NCBI GenBank assembly: GCA_029864405.1
Contig: JAOTTP010000013.1
Location: 1-49,764, forward strand
DNA length: 49,764 bases
Direction: 5' to 3'
Source: Nitrospirota bacterium
Lineage (GTDB): Bacteria > Nitrospirota > Nitrospiria > Nitrospirales > UBA8639
Part shown: positions 19,938-48,584 of the stretch, in pieces
Layout of the letters: each line of letters starts with the position of its first letter
How positions within the stretch are numbered: position 1 is the first letter of the stretch
Notes under the pieces: generated by a model
Databases searched by the model: none
Seen by the model: the letters and a program-made list of their open reading frames with translations, nothing else
What the model was told of the DNA's origin: nothing
Program-made: the position numbers and the translations under genes

Positions 19938-20044
19938 TATCAAGTCGAGACCATCTGAGCTGGTCCGGCCGTGGCGGCTCCCATTTCAGCTTCCCTGGGC
20001 AAGGATGACTTGTATCCAAAAAAGGAACCGGCGCCTTCTTGATA

Positions 20045-20270
20045 TCTTTTTGTGCCGGCTTTCGCCCGGCGGACGAGGTCCTTTTGTTTCGGCAAAAGGA
20101 CCCAAAACCATGGTGGCCGTGGCGTGGCCCTTCGGGTGCCCTGCGCCGTGTCGCCGACTCCGGCGGCGCGCAAACTCGCTGCGCTCAAACAATGCGCGCC
20201 TTCCTCCGAAGTCGGCAACACGACTTGGCCTCGCCACAAGGCCACGGGATTCCAATGATGCTCTGATCTT
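20045..20270 (+). repeat. Structured intergenic repeat (GTCCTTTTG hairpin family), copy 1
   Basis: Two adjacent hairpins define the core: GCCGGCTTTCGCCCGGC, then GTCCTTTTG-TTTCGG-CAAAAGGAC, followed by CCCAAAACCA and a GC-rich tail containing CTCGCTGCGCTCAAACAA. The same core occurs at about 41776-41840 and 44366-44420, and inverted at about 20500-20556. Confidence 0.75.
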
Positions 20271-20374
20271 TTGGCACGATTCTCGGCATCACAAAAACCG
20301 CTCGTGCTCATTTGGAACGTGGTATGTGAAAACCCCACTTTACCTTTCCACCTTTGCCTCATCCGACGCCTGCT

Positions 20375-20560
20375 GACAGGCTCAAGGGACGGACGCTCTG
20401 ATCATTCAGCAGACCTTGTCTGAGCGTAGCGAGTTGGTCTGCTCTCCTAAGGCTCGCGTCTGTCCCATCCAATGAAGCCTGTCTGGGCGTCACTGGTTTT
20501 GGCCACTTTTGCCGAAACAAAAGTGGCTCGGCTGCCGGGGCGAAACCCGGCATCTCCAAA
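20375..20560 (-). repeat. Structured intergenic repeat, copy 2 (inverted)
   Basis: Read on the minus strand it starts GCCGGGTTTCGCCCCGGC, then a hairpin CCACTTTTG-TTTCGG-CAAAAGTGG, then CCAAAACCAGTGACGCCC. This matches the elements at 41.8 and 44.4 kb more closely in its GACGCCC part than copy 1 does, and lies head-on to copy 1. Confidence 0.75.
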
Positions 20561-20807
20561 AACGACATGGATACCATAGTTGGTTAACTGCATTAGACTG
20601 CTTTATTACCCACTCCTATACTGTTTGGCGTTTCCCCTCCCCCCAATGGGGCGAGGGTTGAAAGAGAACCTGGTCTGTGGCGTGGTGAAGCCGTATAGCT
20701 GACACCGGAGAAAAGGCGGGCAGTAGTGAGCCCAGCGGAGTTTCTTGCGCTCTCTCTTTTCTTTGGCAATGACCGATGCTTCCTGTCCGGCCCCCTGAGT
20801 GAACGCT

Positions 20808-41310: not shown

Positions 41311-41626
41311 CGGTAATATTGGAATTGTTAACCTAGCAGCTTGCGAAGGAAATGTGGCGTATTCACAGAGTCGGTATTTCATCCTGTCAGCGCTGAAATG
41401 CCTGAGACCGCGAAAAACAGGAATTATCCCATGGAACAAATGTAGCTGCTCGTTTGGGTATCCAACACACCAGTCCGTCAAACCCCCAGAACCTTGACAG
41501 AACCGTGCCGCGTGTGAGGCTACACTATATCCGGGAAATCTCCGGAGTGGCGGGTGATGCTCGACCTATTCTTTCATCCTGTCGAAAAGCAGACTGTACA
41601 GCATGACAACAGGCCGGGAAAAATTG
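41311..41626. other. Intergenic region before element A
   Basis: No gene is visible. TTGACA at 41494-41499 might be a -35 box but I found no well-spaced -10. Confidence 0.4.
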
Positions 41627-42029
41627 GATCATTCAGAATGTATGGTTCTGGCCTTACAGCTTGACGATGTGTGTCGGGAATCCATCTTGTGGGTTGCCAG
41701 TGAAAAAATCGCTGGCAGGTGACCGCCCTGCACGTGTGGACCCAATTCTCGTGTTCACGTGATTTTCTGTGTTGCCGGGTTTCGCCCCGGCAGGCGAGGT
41801 CCTTTTGTTTTGGCAAAAGGACCCAAAACCAGCGACGCCCCGTCCGGTCTCATTAAGATGGGGCGGACGCAAGCCTTAGGAGGGCGGCCTAACTCGCTGG
41901 GCTCAAACAAAGTCCGCCGGTTCATCAGAGCGTCCGACCCAAGGACCGGACGGCAGGCGTCGGAGCAGGGGAGACAAATCTTTCAGAGACACACATGAAA
42001 GAGCCAGGACCCCTATATTCTGTATGATC
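41627..42029 (+). mobile_element. MITE-like element, copy A, ending over the start codon of the binding-protein gene
   Basis: GATCATTCAGAATGTA (41627-41642) and TATATTCTGTATGATC (42014-42029) are inverted repeats with 14 of 16 positions matching. Between them is the structured core (GCCGGGTTTCGCCCCGGC, GTCCTTTTG-TTTTGG-CAAAAGGAC) and a GC-rich tail. No transposase is encoded. The right arm includes the ATG at 42024. Element B at 44218-44619 has the same layout and length. Confidence 0.75.
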
Positions 42030-43334
42030 AAAAAAACATCGTCAAAAAAGACATCGGTCATGTTTGTCGTTGCGGTGATTGGGCTGTGTGCATTGTTTGC
42101 CGCATGCACAAACGGGAGCGGTGAGAATGACATTCTGAAAATCAAGTTCTGGGCTATGGGCCGCGAAGGGGAAATTGTTCCTGAGCTGCTTAAAGAGTTT
42201 GAACGCGAGAATCCGGGGGTTCGTGTCATTGTTCAGCAGGTTCCCTGGACCGCGGCCCATGAAAAACTGTTGACGGCATTTGCCGGAGACTCACTGCCTG
42301 ATGTCGCTCAGATGGGCAATACCTGGATAGCGGAGTTTGCGTCACTTGATGCCATTGCCAGGCTGGACGAGATGGCCAAGGCTTCTTCCGTGATTGAGGA
42401 ACAGGATTATTTCCCGGGCATCTGGGCGACGAACCGGATTGCCGATGCACTGTACGGCGTGCCCTGGTATGTGGATACGCGGCTCCTCTTTTTCCGGCAG
42501 GATATTCTCAGGGCTGCCGGGATTGGTCGCCCTCCCCGTGACTGGGCTGAATGGATGCAGGCCGCAACGGCGGTGAAGCAGTACGTCGGGAACAAAAACT
42601 TTGCTCTGTTCGTGCCCGTGAATGATTTTGAAATGCAGATTTCCCTCGCTCTTCAACAAGGTGTTCCGTTGCTGCGGGAGGGTGATCGCTATGGCAATTT
42701 TTCAAGCCCTGAGCTGGTGGCCGCTCTTGATTTTTATCTCGACTTTTTCCGCAAGGGGCTGGCTCCGGCCTCCAGTGAATCCGCCATTTCCAATGTGTGG
42801 GATGAATTCGCACGCGGATACTTTACCTTCTATCTGACCGGTCCATGGAATATTGGGGAATTTCGCCGCCGGTTGCCTGCCAATATGCAGGATGACTGGA
42901 TGACCGCCATCCTGCCGGGGCCTTCGGGTCCGGGGGCATCGACGGCGGGCGGTTCAAGCCTGGTGGTGTTTCAACATTCAGCACATCAGGATGTAGCCTT
43001 CCGGCTGGTTGAATTTCTGTCCCGTCCGGAAATTCAACAACAGTTCTACGAGTTGAGCGGCAATCTGCCGCCGCGGCGGTCAAGCTGGCGCGGAGACCGG
43101 CTTGAATCAGATCCGTATGTCGTGGCCTTCAGAGAGCAGCTTGAGCGCGTGCTTCCAACACCGAAAGTCCCTGAATGGGAACGCATCGTGCAGGAATTGC
43201 GCATGGTGACCGAGCGTGCTGTTTATGAGAAATGGACGGCTGTTGAGACGGCGCGTGAATTGGATAGCCGGATTGATCGCATTCTTGAAAAACGACGCTG
43301 GATGCTTGCGCGAAAAGGGGGAGCCGAGTCGTGA
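42024..43334 (+). CDS. ABC sugar transporter, solute-binding lipoprotein (family 1)
   Basis: This 436-residue binding protein has a basic start and lipobox LFAAC (Cys27), anchoring it to the inner membrane outside the cell. LKIKFWAMGREGEIVPELLK begins the first lobe, and AGDSLPDVAQMGNTWIAEFA, LYGVPWYVDTRLLFFRQDIL and GPWNIGEFRRRL are typical of sugar-binding proteins of the MalE/UgpB class. The ATG falls inside the right inverted repeat of the upstream element. Its 3' end overlaps the first permease gene by 4 bp (GTGA). The sugar is not fixed by sequence; a beta-linked glucoside is likely given the downstream glycosidases. Confidence 0.9.
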   Translation: MIKKTSSKKTSVMFVVAVIGLCALFAACTNGSGENDILKIKFWAMGREGEIVPELLKEFERENPGVRVIVQQVPWTAAHEKLLTAFAGDSLPDVAQMGNTWIAEFASLDAIARLDEMAKASSVIEEQDYFPGIWATNRIADALYGVPWYVDTRLLFFRQDILRAAGIGRPPRDWAEWMQAATAVKQYVGNKNFALFVPVNDFEMQISLALQQGVPLLREGDRYGNFSSPELVAALDFYLDFFRKGLAPASSESAISNVWDEFARGYFTFYLTGPWNIGEFRRRLPANMQDDWMTAILPGPSGPGASTAGGSSLVVFQHSAHQDVAFRLVEFLSRPEIQQQFYELSGNLPPRRSSWRGDRLESDPYVVAFREQLERVLPTPKVPEWERIVQELRMVTERAVYEKWTAVETARELDSRIDRILEKRRWMLARKGGAES

Positions 43335-44212
43335 AGCCGTCTGTGGCAGGTTGGCTGTTTGCCGGTCCGGCGCTGGCGATCATTGCCGTCTTTTTCTTTC
43401 TACCGGTGCTGGCGGCCTTGGCCATCAGTCTGACAGACTTTGACATCTATGCCCTGGCCGACCTGTCCAACCTGCGGTTTGTCGGTTTCCAAAACTATAT
43501 CGAGCTGTTGCAACGGCCGTTGTTCTGGCAGGCCCTGGGTAATACGCTGTATTTCGTGCTGGTCGGTGCGCCCCTCTCGGTGATGGTGTCACTGGCGGCG
43601 GCCCTGTTGCTAAACGGGCAGATGGTGCGCTTCAAGGGATTTTTCAGGACCGCATTGTTTGCTCCGGTGGTGACGACAATTGTGGCCGTGGCGGTGATCT
43701 GGCGATATCTTCTGCATACCCGCTATGGTCTGATTAACTACGGTCTCGACGGGTTGGGCCTACCCGTTGTGGACTGGCTGGGCGATCCGCGTTTTGCCAT
43801 GCCGGCCATTATCCTTTTCGCGGTCTGGAAGAACTTTGGCTACAACATGATCATTCTTCTGGCCGGCCTTCAGGCCATACCTGAGGATCTGTATGAAGCG
43901 GCACGGATTGACGGGGCCAACGCCTGGCAGCGTTTTTCCCATGTCACACTGCCTGCCCTGGTTCCCTCGCTGTTTCTCGTCGGGGTCCTGACCATGGCGG
44001 GATACTTCCAACTGTTTGCCGAACCCTATGTGATGACACAGGGCGGACCGGTCCAGAGTACGCTCAGCATCATTTATCTGATGTATGAAGAAGGCTTTAA
44101 GTGGTGGAGCCTGGGCTCGGCCTCCGCCGTGGCCTTCATTCTATTTGTGTTTATGATTGTGGCGGCCATCGGCCAGCTTGCTGTGATGCGGCGGTACGGG
44201 AGTGGAGTGTAA
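43331..44212 (+). CDS. ABC sugar transporter permease, MalF/UgpA type
   Basis: The 293-residue integral membrane protein has six predicted transmembrane helices. It carries the EAA loop ELYEAARIDGANAWQRFSHV (as DLYEAARIDGANAWQRFSHV), which docks to the ATPase, and the typical FQNYIELLQRPLFW and MVRFKGFFRTALFAPVVTTI segments. Start GTG 43331 overlaps the preceding stop. Downstream of its TAA, GGAGTG and ATG 44216 look like the original start signals of the next permease, now separated by the inserted element. Confidence 0.93.
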   Translation: MKPSVAGWLFAGPALAIIAVFFFLPVLAALAISLTDFDIYALADLSNLRFVGFQNYIELLQRPLFWQALGNTLYFVLVGAPLSVMVSLAAALLLNGQMVRFKGFFRTALFAPVVTTIVAVAVIWRYLLHTRYGLINYGLDGLGLPVVDWLGDPRFAMPAIILFAVWKNFGYNMIILLAGLQAIPEDLYEAARIDGANAWQRFSHVTLPALVPSLFLVGVLTMAGYFQLFAEPYVMTQGGPVQSTLSIIYLMYEEGFKWWSLGSASAVAFILFVFMIVAAIGQLAVMRRYGSGV

Positions 44213-44217
44213 GCCAT

Positions 44218-44619
44218 GTTCATACGGAATGTATGGTTCTGGTCTTACAGATTTACTGATGTGTATCGGGAATCCATCTTGGAGTTGGCTAGAAAAAAAG
44301 CGCTGGCTGGTTCGCACATCGCACTTGTGCAATTAACTTTCGTATCAACGTGGTTTTCTGTGTTGCCGGGTTTCGGCCCGGCAGCCGAGGTCCTTTTGTT
44401 TCGGCAAAAGGACCCAAAACCAGTGACGCCCCGTCTGGTCTCATTAAGATGGGACGGACGCAAGCATTAGGAGGGCGGCCCAACTCGCTGCGCTCAAACA
44501 AAGTCCGCCGGTTCATAAGAGCGTCCGACCCAAGGACCGGACGGCAGGCGTCGGAACATGGAAGACGAAACTTTCAGGAATGTGCATGAAGAGGGGGGAG
44601 CTATAAATTCTGTATGATT
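44218..44619 (+). mobile_element. MITE-like element, copy B, between the two permease genes
   Basis: GTTCATACGGAATGTA (44218-44233) and the complementary right end TTCTGTATGATT (44608-44619) form the inverted ends, with the core TCATAC(G/A)GAAT shared with element A. Internal parts from about 44360 to 44560 are nearly the same as element A, including both hairpins and the GCGTCCGACCCAAGGACCGG tail. No transposase is present. The right end contains the ATG at 44614. Confidence 0.78.
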
Positions 44620-45450
44620 GGTAAGCCGATGAGAAATCTGTGGAGAGGATTCGGAGGGAATATCGGCCTGTCTTTCTTTGCCGCGTTTGCCATGCTTCCG
44701 TTGCTGTGGATGCTGAGTGTGTCCTTGATGTCTCCGGGAGAGGCCAGCAGTTTTCCGCCACCGCTATTGCCGAAGCACCCGACACTCGAGAATTATATGA
44801 AGCTCTTTGAATATTCCAGCATGGGGAGGAATTTCTTGAACTCCCTATTTGTGGCGTCGTCGGCCACACTGTTGTCCCTCACGTTCAATGTCTCGGCCGG
44901 CTATGCGTTTGCCAAACTGGAGTTCAAGGGGCGGCAACTGCTGTTCCGCGGGCTTCTGAGCGCCCTGGTCATTCCGGCACAGGTTTCCATGATTCCGCTG
45001 TTCCTGATGTTGAAAGGGATGGGGCTGGTCAATAGCTGGATTGGTGTGCTGATCCCCTTTGTGGCCAGCATATTCGGGATCTTCCTGATCCGGCAGTATG
45101 CCCTGTCTATTCCAACGGAACTGATCGAGTCGGCCCGGATTGAAGGCGCGAGTGAAATCCGAATTTTCCGGTCGGTCGTGGTGCCGTTACTCACACCCAT
45201 TCTGATTACCCTGGGGCTGTTTACCTTTCTGGCCGCATGGAATGATTTCCTGTGGCCGCTGATCGTCCTGACCGACAGCGACAAATATACGTTGCCGATT
45301 GCCCTCGCATCTCTGTCGCGTGAGCATGTGCAGGATGTCGAATTGATGATGGCCGGTGCGGTGGTCACCGTGACACCGGTCCTGGTTCTTTTCCTGGCGC
45401 TTCAGCGTTTTTACATGAGCGGAACTCTTGCGGGTAGCGTGAAGGGATGA
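44614..45450 (+). CDS. ABC sugar transporter permease, MalG/UgpE type
   Basis: The 278-residue permease has six membrane helices and the EAA motif ELIESARIEGASEIRIFRSV. ISAGYAFAKLEFKGR-like (as VSAGYAFAKLEFKGRQLLF), FLIRQYALSIP and FLAAWNDFLWPLIVLTD are standard for the MalG class. ATG 44614 lies in the inverted repeat of the inserted element, without a well-spaced Shine-Dalgarno; GAGGGGGGAG is about 15 nt upstream. The stop overlaps the next gene's start by 4 bp. No ATPase gene is seen in the window; it may lie beyond the right edge. Confidence 0.93.
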   Translation: MIGKPMRNLWRGFGGNIGLSFFAAFAMLPLLWMLSVSLMSPGEASSFPPPLLPKHPTLENYMKLFEYSSMGRNFLNSLFVASSATLLSLTFNVSAGYAFAKLEFKGRQLLFRGLLSALVIPAQVSMIPLFLMLKGMGLVNSWIGVLIPFVASIFGIFLIRQYALSIPTELIESARIEGASEIRIFRSVVVPLLTPILITLGLFTFLAAWNDFLWPLIVLTDSDKYTLPIALASLSREHVQDVELMMAGAVVTVTPVLVLFLALQRFYMSGTLAGSVKG

Positions 45451-48400
45451 GATGTTCATGGTGGGCATCATCCTGTCTCCTTGCCGGAATGGTATCCTTA
45501 TCAATGGTCGTATTTGCGGCGGATAAGAGAAACGCCAATAATTTCCGGTTGCTCGACGGTTTTGAACGGATCGGGGAATGGCAGGCAGGCGCTACGGAAG
45601 ACTGTGATGCGTCTGTAAGCACGACAAAAGGCGCAAGAGGCCATGCGCTCAAACTGTCGTATACCTTCCGGGCCGCCGGTGTCGCTTATGCTCGTCGCGC
45701 ACTCCCGCTTAATCTCTCGAAAAATTTCGAGATGGCATTCCAGCTCAGAGGTCATGCCCCGAAGTCGACGCTTGAGGTAAAGCTGATTGATGAAAGCGGT
45801 GCGAATGTTTGGTGGAAACGGTTCTCTGATTATGAGTTTCCTGATGACTGGACAACCATTCGCATTCGGCGCAGTGATATCAGTTTTGCCTGGGGTCCCA
45901 TCGAAGATCATACGCTGAAAACCATCGCCAAAATGGAGTTTGTTGTTGTCGGCGCAAGCGGTGACAAGGCTTCCGTCGAGTTTGATACGCTTGAAATACG
46001 GACGCTGCCCGACCTGCCCGCCGTTCTTCCTCTGCTCGTGGCGAAAGACGGTGACGTTCCTGCTCCTGCCGCAGTTGACGGCAATCCGGAGACAGTCTGG
46101 ACTGCCGATAAGACCACGGACTTGACGCTTGATCGGGGCTATGTGGGCGAGCTTGGCGGTTTGACCTTGCGATGGGCCGCGGGGCAGGAGCCTAAGACGT
46201 TGAACATTACCCTTTCCGAGGACGGCACCACCTGGACAGTGCCGGACTGGCAACAGCATATCGCGCCTTCCTCCACAGGAACCACCGAATATCTGCGCAT
46301 GCCAAAAGCCTTCGGGCGTTATATTCGCCTTTCAATAAACCCGGCATCCGGAGGCCGTGTTGGCCTGTTGGATGCGACGGTCGAACCAACGGAGTTCGGA
46401 CAGGATGATAACCGGTTCTTGCTGTCACTAGCCCGGGAATCCGAAAAGGGAACATATCCACGCAGTTTTTTTGGGGAGCAGATCTACTGGACCATCGTTG
46501 GCGTTCCTCAGGGCGGCCGGGCGGCCCTGTTGTCGGAAGACGGCGCCATGGAACCTGGACCAGGGGCTTTCTCGATTGAACCGTTTGTGATCGAAGATGC
46601 TTCCGTGCTGAGTTGGGCGAATGCCGAACATCACCATAGTCTGCTGGATGATTATCTCCCCTTGCCGCGAGTACGCCGGACCCATGAGGGCTTGTTACTC
46701 GATATCAGTGCCCATCGTCCGCCTGTTCCCGCCGGAAGGGAAGGCGCGACTGACGGTAATGCCCGCGATGTGGTCACCAGATATCGTATTGCCAACACCG
46801 GCCATATCCGGCGAACGCTCACGCTGGCCCTTGCAATCCGCCCAATGCAAGTCAATCCGCCTACCCAAACCCTGAACTTGGTTGGGGGTGCCAGCAGAAT
46901 TGAACGGATCAGCTGGGATGGTGCAGCGTTTCAGGTGAATGGTGACTGGTCTGTGTATCCTGACCTGAAGCCGGACCACGTGTCCCTGGCAGGCTTTGAA
47001 CGGGCCGGTTTCCCGCATGTGCAAGATGCCGCCGCAGGCATGGATTCACAAAGCGTAGTAGCTCCTGGAGGCTTCGGCTCCGGCGTCATGTATTTTCATA
47101 TTGATCTGAGGCCGGGTGAGGTTCGCGATGCGACTGTGGTCACGGTGCTTGGTGATGATGACGGGCGTATGCCCGATCTGAACCACGAGGCCATTGATGC
47201 GGGCGAAATGGCTGCAATTGATGAATGGCGGGAAATCCTCAATCGGGTGGACATTTCAGGCCCTCCTGAAACCATGCCGGTTCTCAATGCCTTGAAAACC
47301 GCGTTCGCGCATATGATGATCACGCGCGAAGGGCCTGCACTCCGTCCGGGGCCACGTTCCTATGCCCGTTCGTGGATACGTGACGGGGCGATGATGAGTG
47401 AAAGTTTCCTGCGTCTTGGGCACAATGGGCCTGCGGTCGATTTTGCTCGCTGGTATGCGCCTTACCAATTCTCCAGCGGCAAGGTTCCCTGTTGTGTTGA
47501 CAAACGTGGCGCGGACCCGGTCGTCGAGAATGACAGCCATGGAGAGCTAATTTTTCTGATCGCGGATATTTACCGGTACACGAGGGATCGTGGCTTTGCC
47601 GAGGCCATGTGGCCCTATGCGGACAAGGCCGCTGCCGCTCTCGATGCACTGAGGCTGTCGGAACGCACGGAGCGCAACCGTCAGGGTGACCGCAAGGCAC
47701 TCTTTGGTCTGTTGCCGCCCTCGATCAGCCATGAAGGCTATTCGGATCAACCGGCCTATTCATTCTGGGATAATTTCTGGGGTCTGAAAGGGCTGAACGA
47801 TGCGGCATTCCTCGCTCTTGAATTGGGACACACGGACCGTGCAGCCGAACTCAGGGCGGATGCCGCCGAATTTGCCGGAGATATTGGGGCTTCTGTCCGG
47901 TTGTTGGGTGAAGAGCTCGGGCACGTGCCGGGGGCAGCCGACCGAAAAGATTTTGACCCGACATCCACGACGATCGCGCTTTCGCCTACCGGGGCCGCAA
48001 CAGCCTTGCCCAGGGAGTTGCTGATGGCCACGTTCGAGAAAGCCTGGTCGGAGTTTGTGGCGCGGCGCGATGGCCAGAAGGCGTGGGAAGTTTATACTCC
48101 CTATGAATTCCGTCAGGTGAGCGCGTTTGTGCGTCTGGGAGAGCCGGAGCGTGCCCATGCCCTGCTGGACTTTTTCATGCGGGATCGTCGCCCGGTAGCC
48201 TGGAACCAGTGGAGCGAGGTCATCAGCCGACTGAAACGGGAACCGCATTTCATTGGCGATCTGCCCCATACATGGGTGGGATCGGATTTCATCCGGGCGG
48301 TGCTTTATCTTTTTGTTTATGCGGATACTGCTAACGACTCACTGGTCATCGGCGCCGGTCTGCTGCGATCCTGGCTACAGGGTGAAGGTATCCGGGTGCG

Positions 48401-48584
48401 TGGGCTGAGAACCCCGTATGGCGAGGTGTCCTATACGGCGCGTGAGGGGGGCGGGCAAGTGCGCGTTGATCTGGAAGGATCGACCAAGCCACCTGGCGGC
48501 TATGTTCTGCCGGCTTCCCTGAAAGGTGATGTCAGGGTAACATTCAATGGAAACCCTGTGGGCGTCCCCATAAAATCCCCTTAA
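45447..48584 (+). CDS. Large secreted multidomain six-hairpin-glycosidase-like protein
   Basis: This 1045-residue protein has a signal peptide (WWASSCLLAGMVSLSMVVFA). Next come a carbohydrate-binding-like beta-sandwich (about 30-185, FEMAFQLRGHAPKSTLEVKL), an F5/8 type C (discoidin)-like domain (about 200-315, with DGNPETVWTADKTTDLTLDR) and a further beta-rich part to about 600. The C-terminal 450 residues have an (alpha/alpha)6 look: YARSWIRDGAMMSESFLRLG near 640 and YSFWDNFWGLKGL near 770 match the W-x-RD and W-D-x-F-W patterns of amylo-1,6-glucosidase/GH15/GH63-like enzymes. It probably hydrolyses an oligosaccharide outside or in the periplasm, feeding the transporter. The precise family and bond are not determinable by eye. 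Confidence 0.75.
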   Translation: MRCSWWASSCLLAGMVSLSMVVFAADKRNANNFRLLDGFERIGEWQAGATEDCDASVSTTKGARGHALKLSYTFRAAGVAYARRALPLNLSKNFEMAFQLRGHAPKSTLEVKLIDESGANVWWKRFSDYEFPDDWTTIRIRRSDISFAWGPIEDHTLKTIAKMEFVVVGASGDKASVEFDTLEIRTLPDLPAVLPLLVAKDGDVPAPAAVDGNPETVWTADKTTDLTLDRGYVGELGGLTLRWAAGQEPKTLNITLSEDGTTWTVPDWQQHIAPSSTGTTEYLRMPKAFGRYIRLSINPASGGRVGLLDATVEPTEFGQDDNRFLLSLARESEKGTYPRSFFGEQIYWTIVGVPQGGRAALLSEDGAMEPGPGAFSIEPFVIEDASVLSWANAEHHHSLLDDYLPLPRVRRTHEGLLLDISAHRPPVPAGREGATDGNARDVVTRYRIANTGHIRRTLTLALAIRPMQVNPPTQTLNLVGGASRIERISWDGAAFQVNGDWSVYPDLKPDHVSLAGFERAGFPHVQDAAAGMDSQSVVAPGGFGSGVMYFHIDLRPGEVRDATVVTVLGDDDGRMPDLNHEAIDAGEMAAIDEWREILNRVDISGPPETMPVLNALKTAFAHMMITREGPALRPGPRSYARSWIRDGAMMSESFLRLGHNGPAVDFARWYAPYQFSSGKVPCCVDKRGADPVVENDSHGELIFLIADIYRYTRDRGFAEAMWPYADKAAAALDALRLSERTERNRQGDRKALFGLLPPSISHEGYSDQPAYSFWDNFWGLKGLNDAAFLALELGHTDRAAELRADAAEFAGDIGASVRLLGEELGHVPGAADRKDFDPTSTTIALSPTGAATALPRELLMATFEKAWSEFVARRDGQKAWEVYTPYEFRQVSAFVRLGEPERAHALLDFFMRDRRPVAWNQWSEVISRLKREPHFIGDLPHTWVGSDFIRAVLYLFVYADTANDSLVIGAGLLRSWLQGEGIRVRGLRTPYGEVSYTAREGGGQVRVDLEGSTKPPGGYVLPASLKGDVRVTFNGNPVGVPIKSP

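Follow-up and report, generated by a model that had tools for sequence, protein, structure and literature searches.

The transport operon and its two elements

The window analyzed here is a stretch of 49,764 nucleotides and represents one of the contigs of a genome of 2.9 Mb that is 66% complete and belongs to a relative of nitrite-oxidising bacteria. Judged by the second permease of the operon described below, the closest named relatives are Nitrospirales MAGs (NPIRA06, NPIRA04, RBC_NOB5, OFTM334, MGR_bin327). The window contains a sugar-transport operon with genes for a solute-binding protein and two permeases, followed by a gene for a large F5/8-type-C domain protein (45447-48584). Two elements, termed A and B, were found in this operon, having inverted ends and a core in common and showing 84% identity to each other. 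The following features were assigned (basis of the assignment in brackets):

41603..41722, + strand, stub of the binding-protein gene read from its native start, entering element A and stopping after 39 codons (starts of relatives with an empty site)
41618..41625, + strand, left target duplication copy of A, GAAAAATT (5/8 match in the window)
41626..42030, + strand, element A, MITE inside the binding-protein gene, 405 bp (end pattern, copies, empty sites of relatives)
41626..41645, + strand, left inverted end of A (end-pattern match)
41771..41964, + strand, structured core of A, 194 bp (core alignment)
42011..42030, - strand, right inverted end of A, containing ATG 42024 (end-pattern match)
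42024..43334, + strand, gene for an extracellular solute-binding protein, its probable start being the ATG of element A (SBP_bac_1, E 2.5e-37)
42031..42038, + strand, right target duplication copy of A, AAAAAACA (paired-flank comparison)
43331..44212, + strand, first permease gene (BPD_transp_1)
44209..44216, + strand, left target duplication copy of B, GTAAGCCA, which includes the last bases of the first permease gene (read directly)
44217..44620, + strand, element B, MITE between the two permease genes, 404 bp (end pattern, empty sites of relatives)
44362..44555, + strand, structured core of B, 194 bp (core alignment, covariance model)
44601..44620, - strand, right inverted end of B, containing ATG 44614 (end-pattern match)
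44614..45450, + strand, second permease gene as read from the ATG of element B; the native start is the in-frame ATG 44629
44621..44628, + strand, right target duplication copy of B, GTAAGCCG (read directly)

The first-pass annotation had already described two elements of about 400 bp with inverted ends and a common core, as well as right arms holding the ATGs 42024 and 44614, from which both frames start with Met-Ile. Both statements were borne out, the limits given for the elements being 1-2 bases off (by reading). A promoter scan of 41500-44750 yielded 2 promoter-like sites compared to 1.5 expected. In the same range, 9 terminator-like sites were counted compared to 4.1 expected (sd 2.6), two of them falling in cores.

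Family ends, copies and target duplication

A and B belong to a family of MITE-like, non-autonomous transposons found in a Nitrospirales genus; the family is characterized by inverted ends GGATCATACAGAATWTAKGG, a length of about 400 bp and an 8-bp target duplication. Using element A as query, 47 matches were obtained in its own genome; 13 of them cover at least 330 of the 431 query bases, and the others are shorter and consist mostly of core. The 20-base end GGATCATACAGAATWTATGG (up to 3 mismatches) occurs 22 times in this genome, compared to 0 occurrences of the reversed pattern. Of 20 genomes from the genus, 16 contained a 23-base end pattern and none contained its reversed control. A looser 14-base end pattern was dropped because it was too noisy and the control also matched.

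For analysis of the target duplication, 18 paired elements of 170-517 bp from five genomes were used (6 from the own genome including A, 6 from G013, and 2 each from G018, G009 and G019; G numbers denote genomes and L numbers loci). Element B is not among the 18, as the left end of this copy has diverged too far to be recognized by the pattern. The paired flanking 8-mers match at 77% of the positions compared to 33% (sd 5%) after shuffling (z 8.7; 0 of 2000 shuffles as high). Lengths of 4-7 and 9 gave z values of 1.6-2.7, and at 10-12 z was negative. The 8-mers are identical at 6 of the 18 elements, and two elements (G009 3317k, G013 C6) match at 1/8 positions. For A, 5/8 positions match in the window and 7/8 each in G009 and G018 (by reading); the flanks of B in G018 agree better with a duplication of 9 bp, or with one of 8 bp that has an additional indel (by eye). 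The earlier statement that no target duplication longer than 3 bp is visible has to be revised in view of the 8 bp found in the paired elements. Shared inverted ends, a fixed-length duplication, a short sequence without a transposase gene and the empty sites of relatives described below characterize the elements as MITEs.

No transposase with these ends was seen at the 57 loci examined, the own genome being 66% complete. The 80 end sequences at these loci (repeats included) all run into known MITE sequence of two cargo types, and therefore no autonomous copy was seen among them. ISL3-family insertion sequences generate 8-bp duplications and have ends starting with GG. Because of this duplication length an ISL3 parent was examined, and none of the 26 transposase matches from 9 of the 20 genus genomes carries such an end in the fetched stretch. 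The best end match in the ISL3 flanks comprises 16 of 23 positions; many of the ISL3 matches are fragmentary or situated at the edge of a contig. Also, a transposase-sized interval between ends on G014 C30 turned out to consist of two separate elements with ordinary genes between them.

As far as the excerpted text of the respective paper goes, MITEAba12 of Acinetobacter is similar in having inverted ends, a fixed-length duplication (9 bp vs 8 bp here) and no internal transposase (PMC6382973). It is 111-114 bp long with ISAba12 as proposed parent, whereas the elements studied here have about 400 bp and no parent was found. Unlike MITEAba12 as presented in these excerpts, the core found here also exists alone, and two conserved gene starts lie in the element and are kept across species. 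In the open-licence PMC literature, no paper was found on the family or on two core strings, and few papers on a MITE with a start codon or on a MITE with Nitrospira.

Native sites and start codons in related species

The junction of the two permease genes, i.e., site B, was available in 11 genomes; the remaining genus genomes gave no close match to the second permease. It is occupied in seven (own, G018, G013, G009, G011, G017, G002) and empty in four (G004, i.e., OFTM334; G043, i.e., RBC_NOB5; NPIRA04; ERR2094167 MAG). G002 has only the right end, at a contig edge, and the copies of G013 and G017 lack the left arm, with a core directly following the gene end. At the empty sites, the spacing from stop codon to start codon between the two permease genes is 3-4 nt. 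The start of the second gene is preceded by a GGAG site and is ATG in three cases and TTG in G043; the empty site of G004 reads GGAGTGTAAGCCAATGAG. At site A, an element is present in the own genome, G018, G009 and G017 (in the last one as right half only), whereas the site is empty in G004, G043, NPIRA04, the ERR2094167 MAG and G013. This count leaves out G011 and G002, in which the site lies beyond the contigs. Both copies are absent from four close relatives. The shared ends, the duplication and the empty sites document the mobility of the elements; their positions, the frames described below and their persistence in related species are also shown.

The empty sites show that the native starts are 44629 for the permease and 41603 for the binding protein, so that B lies just before a gene start and A inside a gene. 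The earlier proposal of an insertion exactly at the start codon can thus not be maintained. Deletion of 44217-44616, thought to restore the normal spacing, would leave the second duplication copy in place, unlike the empty site of G004. Element B is located directly upstream of the native ATG 44629 and separates the second permease gene from its ribosome site, and element A is located 23 nt past the native start 41603.

The ATG of element B is in frame with the second permease in 7/7 occupied species, and that of element A with the binding protein in 4/4. At the B junction (ATG ATT GGT AAG CCG ATG AGA...) the native frame is joined with five residues added; the native ATG is kept in 6/7 occupied species and is GTG in G009. 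At the A junction (ATG ATC AAA AAA ACA...) the frame is that of the signal peptide. The ATG is located 36 nt (12 codons) before the same internal codon in 4/4 species, with stops and indels absent, and the four leaders differ too little to show selection. In the empty relatives the native leaders comprise 14-15 codons to the same site (by reading). As the native start at A now encodes only 39 codons, the ATG of element A is probably the start in use, and from the sequences ribosomes probably start at the ATGs of both elements. The nearest purine-rich stretch at B (GGGGAG) is about 13 nt upstream of the element ATG, which is longer than usual, and that at A is weaker. The idea of a mobile repeat supplying a start codon, raised in the first-pass annotation, is supported at A and B by the four empty relatives and by the frame agreement in 7/7 and 4/4 species. 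Empty and orthologous occupied sites together give a before-and-after view of two conserved genes in a single operon, the starts of which were probably taken over by transposon ends. Events of this kind bear on gene-start annotation and on the tolerance of bacteria to insertions.

With good confidence we regard A and B as MITE copies with 8-bp duplications that probably provide the starts of their genes, the in-frame outcome being selectively kept and not targeted. The MITE, its inverted ends measuring about 20-23 bp, would be moved by a transposase making 8-bp target duplications. As the ends read ...ATTCTGTATGATCC outward, most insertions place an outward ATG 7 bp from the edge; from this ATG to the end of the duplication there are 15 nt, or five codons. 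B was inserted directly before the native permease ATG, leaving the GGAG ribosome site 400 bp upstream, and its in-frame ATG would add Met-Ile-Gly-Lys-Pro to the second permease. A was inserted in the binding-protein gene, and with its ATG as the probable start the signal peptide has a new N-terminal portion. The two in-frame outcomes would be fortunate insertions kept by selection instead of results of targeting.

For A, the ancestral leader with the 8-bp duplication amounts to 23+29-8 = 44 nt. This is not a multiple of three and thus requires a further 1-bp change near the insertion, so that the ATG of element A may have been out of frame at first. The empty site A of G013 has one extra base on its right-hand side (alignment by eye, low complexity), which would be a weak hint at a frame-restoring deletion at A. 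More tentatively, the inverted ends could be regarded as portable start codons, since the ATG plus the 8-bp duplication make up five codons and an insertion before or inside a gene start can thereby hand over a new start. Two such take-overs would have become fixed, the one at A possibly after a 1-bp change, and the native starts could then decay. If this is true, the cost of an insertion would be lowered.

It is also conceivable, albeit doubtful, that the elements are ordinary MITE spacers with the real starts at 44629 and at 42060, an in-frame ATG at A that could serve as alternative start. The element ATGs would then be in frame by chance, for which the probability is 1/3 per site. The retained native ATG at B in 6 of the 7 occupied species agrees with this explanation, as does the finding that, across the family, genes read from the outward ATG are not clearly in excess (see below). 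However, a start at 42060 loses the charged beginning of the signal peptide, which is native in the empty-site relatives, the native ATG at B has turned into GTG in G009, and close to 44629 there is only GGTAAG, a weak possible ribosome site 3 nt before this ATG.

In-frame fusions of bacterial MITEs have been described (PMC10969869, PMC2759123, PMC2229807), and terminal start codons have been noted as a possibility for them (PMC6382973); the comparisons given here refer to excerpts of these papers. The palindromic elements of Rickettsia are likewise small repeats in frame within protein genes, but they add a peptide inside genes, whereas here the end of the element gives a start codon and a few residues (PMC10969869). 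ERIC / RU-1 and YPAL / RU-2 repeats are also fused to frames, once as part of a signal peptide; in contrast to A and B, these fusions use the internal reading frame of the element (PMC2759123, PMC2229807). In the right arm, a mini reading frame whose TGA overlaps the element ATG (seen at own A) was considered and rejected. It is intact in 22 of 42 scored arms compared to 14.5 (sd 3.1) expected from independent columns, with 2 of 44 arms left out as too short, and it stops early at own B. Changes from the consensus at codon positions 1, 2 and 3 amount to 0.208, 0.079 and 0.123 (38 arms, as 4 of the 42 were too diverged for the codon count); since they mostly affect position 1, there is no sign of coding selection.

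For the question of a bias towards gene starts, outward frames over up to 1.2 kb were analyzed at 69 ends (22 own, 13 G018, 9 G009, 7 G019, 18 G013). The outward ATG is in place at 61 of them, the ends having been selected by a pattern that includes this ATG, and frame +1 is shut immediately by TGA at 67. Frame 0 is open for at least 100 codons at six ends, namely own A, own B, A of G009, B of G018 and two others with 119 and 107 codons, for which no Pfam match was found. Eight further frame-0 stretches of 50-99 codons had no Pfam match either. In the Pfam search of all frames of at least 50 codons at the 69 ends, a recognisable gene in frame with the outward ATG was thus limited to A, B and their orthologues. 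Frame +2 is open for at least 100 codons at two ends, leading into Pirin and Exo_endo_phos genes that each have their own ATG. Without the four operon ends, the counts for frame 0 and frame +2 are 24/19 (30 codons), 10/7 (50), 5/2 (80) and 2/2 (100), so the lead of frame 0 at the shorter lengths consists of small differences.

The claim that the element inserts preferentially at start codons is not supported over the 69 ends. That the family targets translation starts is very improbable. In its favor, two copies in the same orientation lie near gene starts of one operon, and frame 0, that of the ATG, slightly exceeds frame +2 in the number of open stretches at 30, 50 and 80 codons. On the other side, the frames of 50 codons or more at the 69 ends lead from the outward ATG into no further gene known to Pfam, and the duplications look A/T-rich without a start-codon motif (by eye). 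We take A and B as exceptions and not as a habit of the family, the survey being small.

Structured core and neighboring insertions

The core was also found alone, since 11 of 12 copies aligned with their flanks have flanks other than MITE arms (by eye); the twelfth copy (L016) keeps part of the left arm (by eye). A core fold of 34 pairs was derived from an alignment of 46 cores, the same alignment being used for the pairing test. With this fold, 96.7% of the cells are paired compared to 30-51% in slid controls. Double-changed cells number 83 compared to 25.4 after shuffling (0 of 500 as high), and 13 pairs have double changes. Further pair types (27 vs 24.4 shuffled, 21 of 500 as high) are less decisive.

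The pairing would fit a regulatory role of A and B, with the core in the operon transcript setting mRNA processing or the ratio of binding protein to permeases, as would the observation that in relatives up to three junctions of the operon are filled by elements or cores. We nevertheless consider this role improbable: the core also occurs at many unrelated places, the length of the gap at site B differs among species (about 400 to 920 bp), four species having none, and the base pairing may instead serve movement at the DNA level. In the relatives, one to three cores are present at site B. A second, core-free cargo of 170-336 bp was seen within the same ends in five examples (L188-L192; G013, G009). 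Occurring alone and inside ends that carry two kinds of cargo, the core represents a separate, unexplained repeat system in a Nitrospirales family.

With strict filters, a covariance model matched the core in 4 of 148 genomes sampled from the phylum, one of them the own genome; the four belong to three genera of one family. In the other genera of this family (G022, G042, G045; L260-L278), full-length diverged cores were observed, with 17 listed per genome. Rfam gave a single match for 41500-44700 of the window (E 1.5; 18.2 bits vs a cut-off of 75), and plasmids gave no match to the core at E 0.01. Outside the Nitrospirales, the core was detected in 0 of 21 genomes around a Burkholderiales MAG (covariance model, run without positive control). 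Short blastn matches to the core in 2 of 12 genomes were, on reading, unlike the same element.

The cores of own A and own B are mutual nearest neighbors among 60 cores (94.8%). The next nearest core lies at another place in G013 (93.8%), and orthologous B cores reach at most 91%. For the right arms, the values are 0.85-0.94 between those of A and their orthologues and 0.75 between own A and own B, but those of B are scattered (0.71-0.89) without clean separation from A arms. The likeness of the cores together with the scattered arms gives only a suggestion that cores may be replaced or converted within a genome.

A further core copy without MITE ends is present in the window at 20040-20260 (+), facing a variant at 20362-20583 (-). 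About 58 bases of the 5′ part (92%) and, by eye, the AACTCGCTGCGCTCAAACAA stretch are common to the core and the variant, whereas the large stem of the variant is different.

The junction of the binding-protein gene and the first permease gene, which is intact in the window, carries an insert of about 0.86-1.95 kb in G017, G009, G011 and G013 (L086, L082, L085 and L080, respectively). These inserts contain cores and a DUF433 gene, identified by Pfam in G009 and by sequence likeness in G017 and G011. The insert of G017 also has a DUF5615/PIN-like gene (Pfam). Pairs of DUF433 and DUF5615/PIN-like genes are of the antitoxin-toxin type. The junction insert of G013 is followed by a second copy of the final 51 codons of the binding-protein gene.
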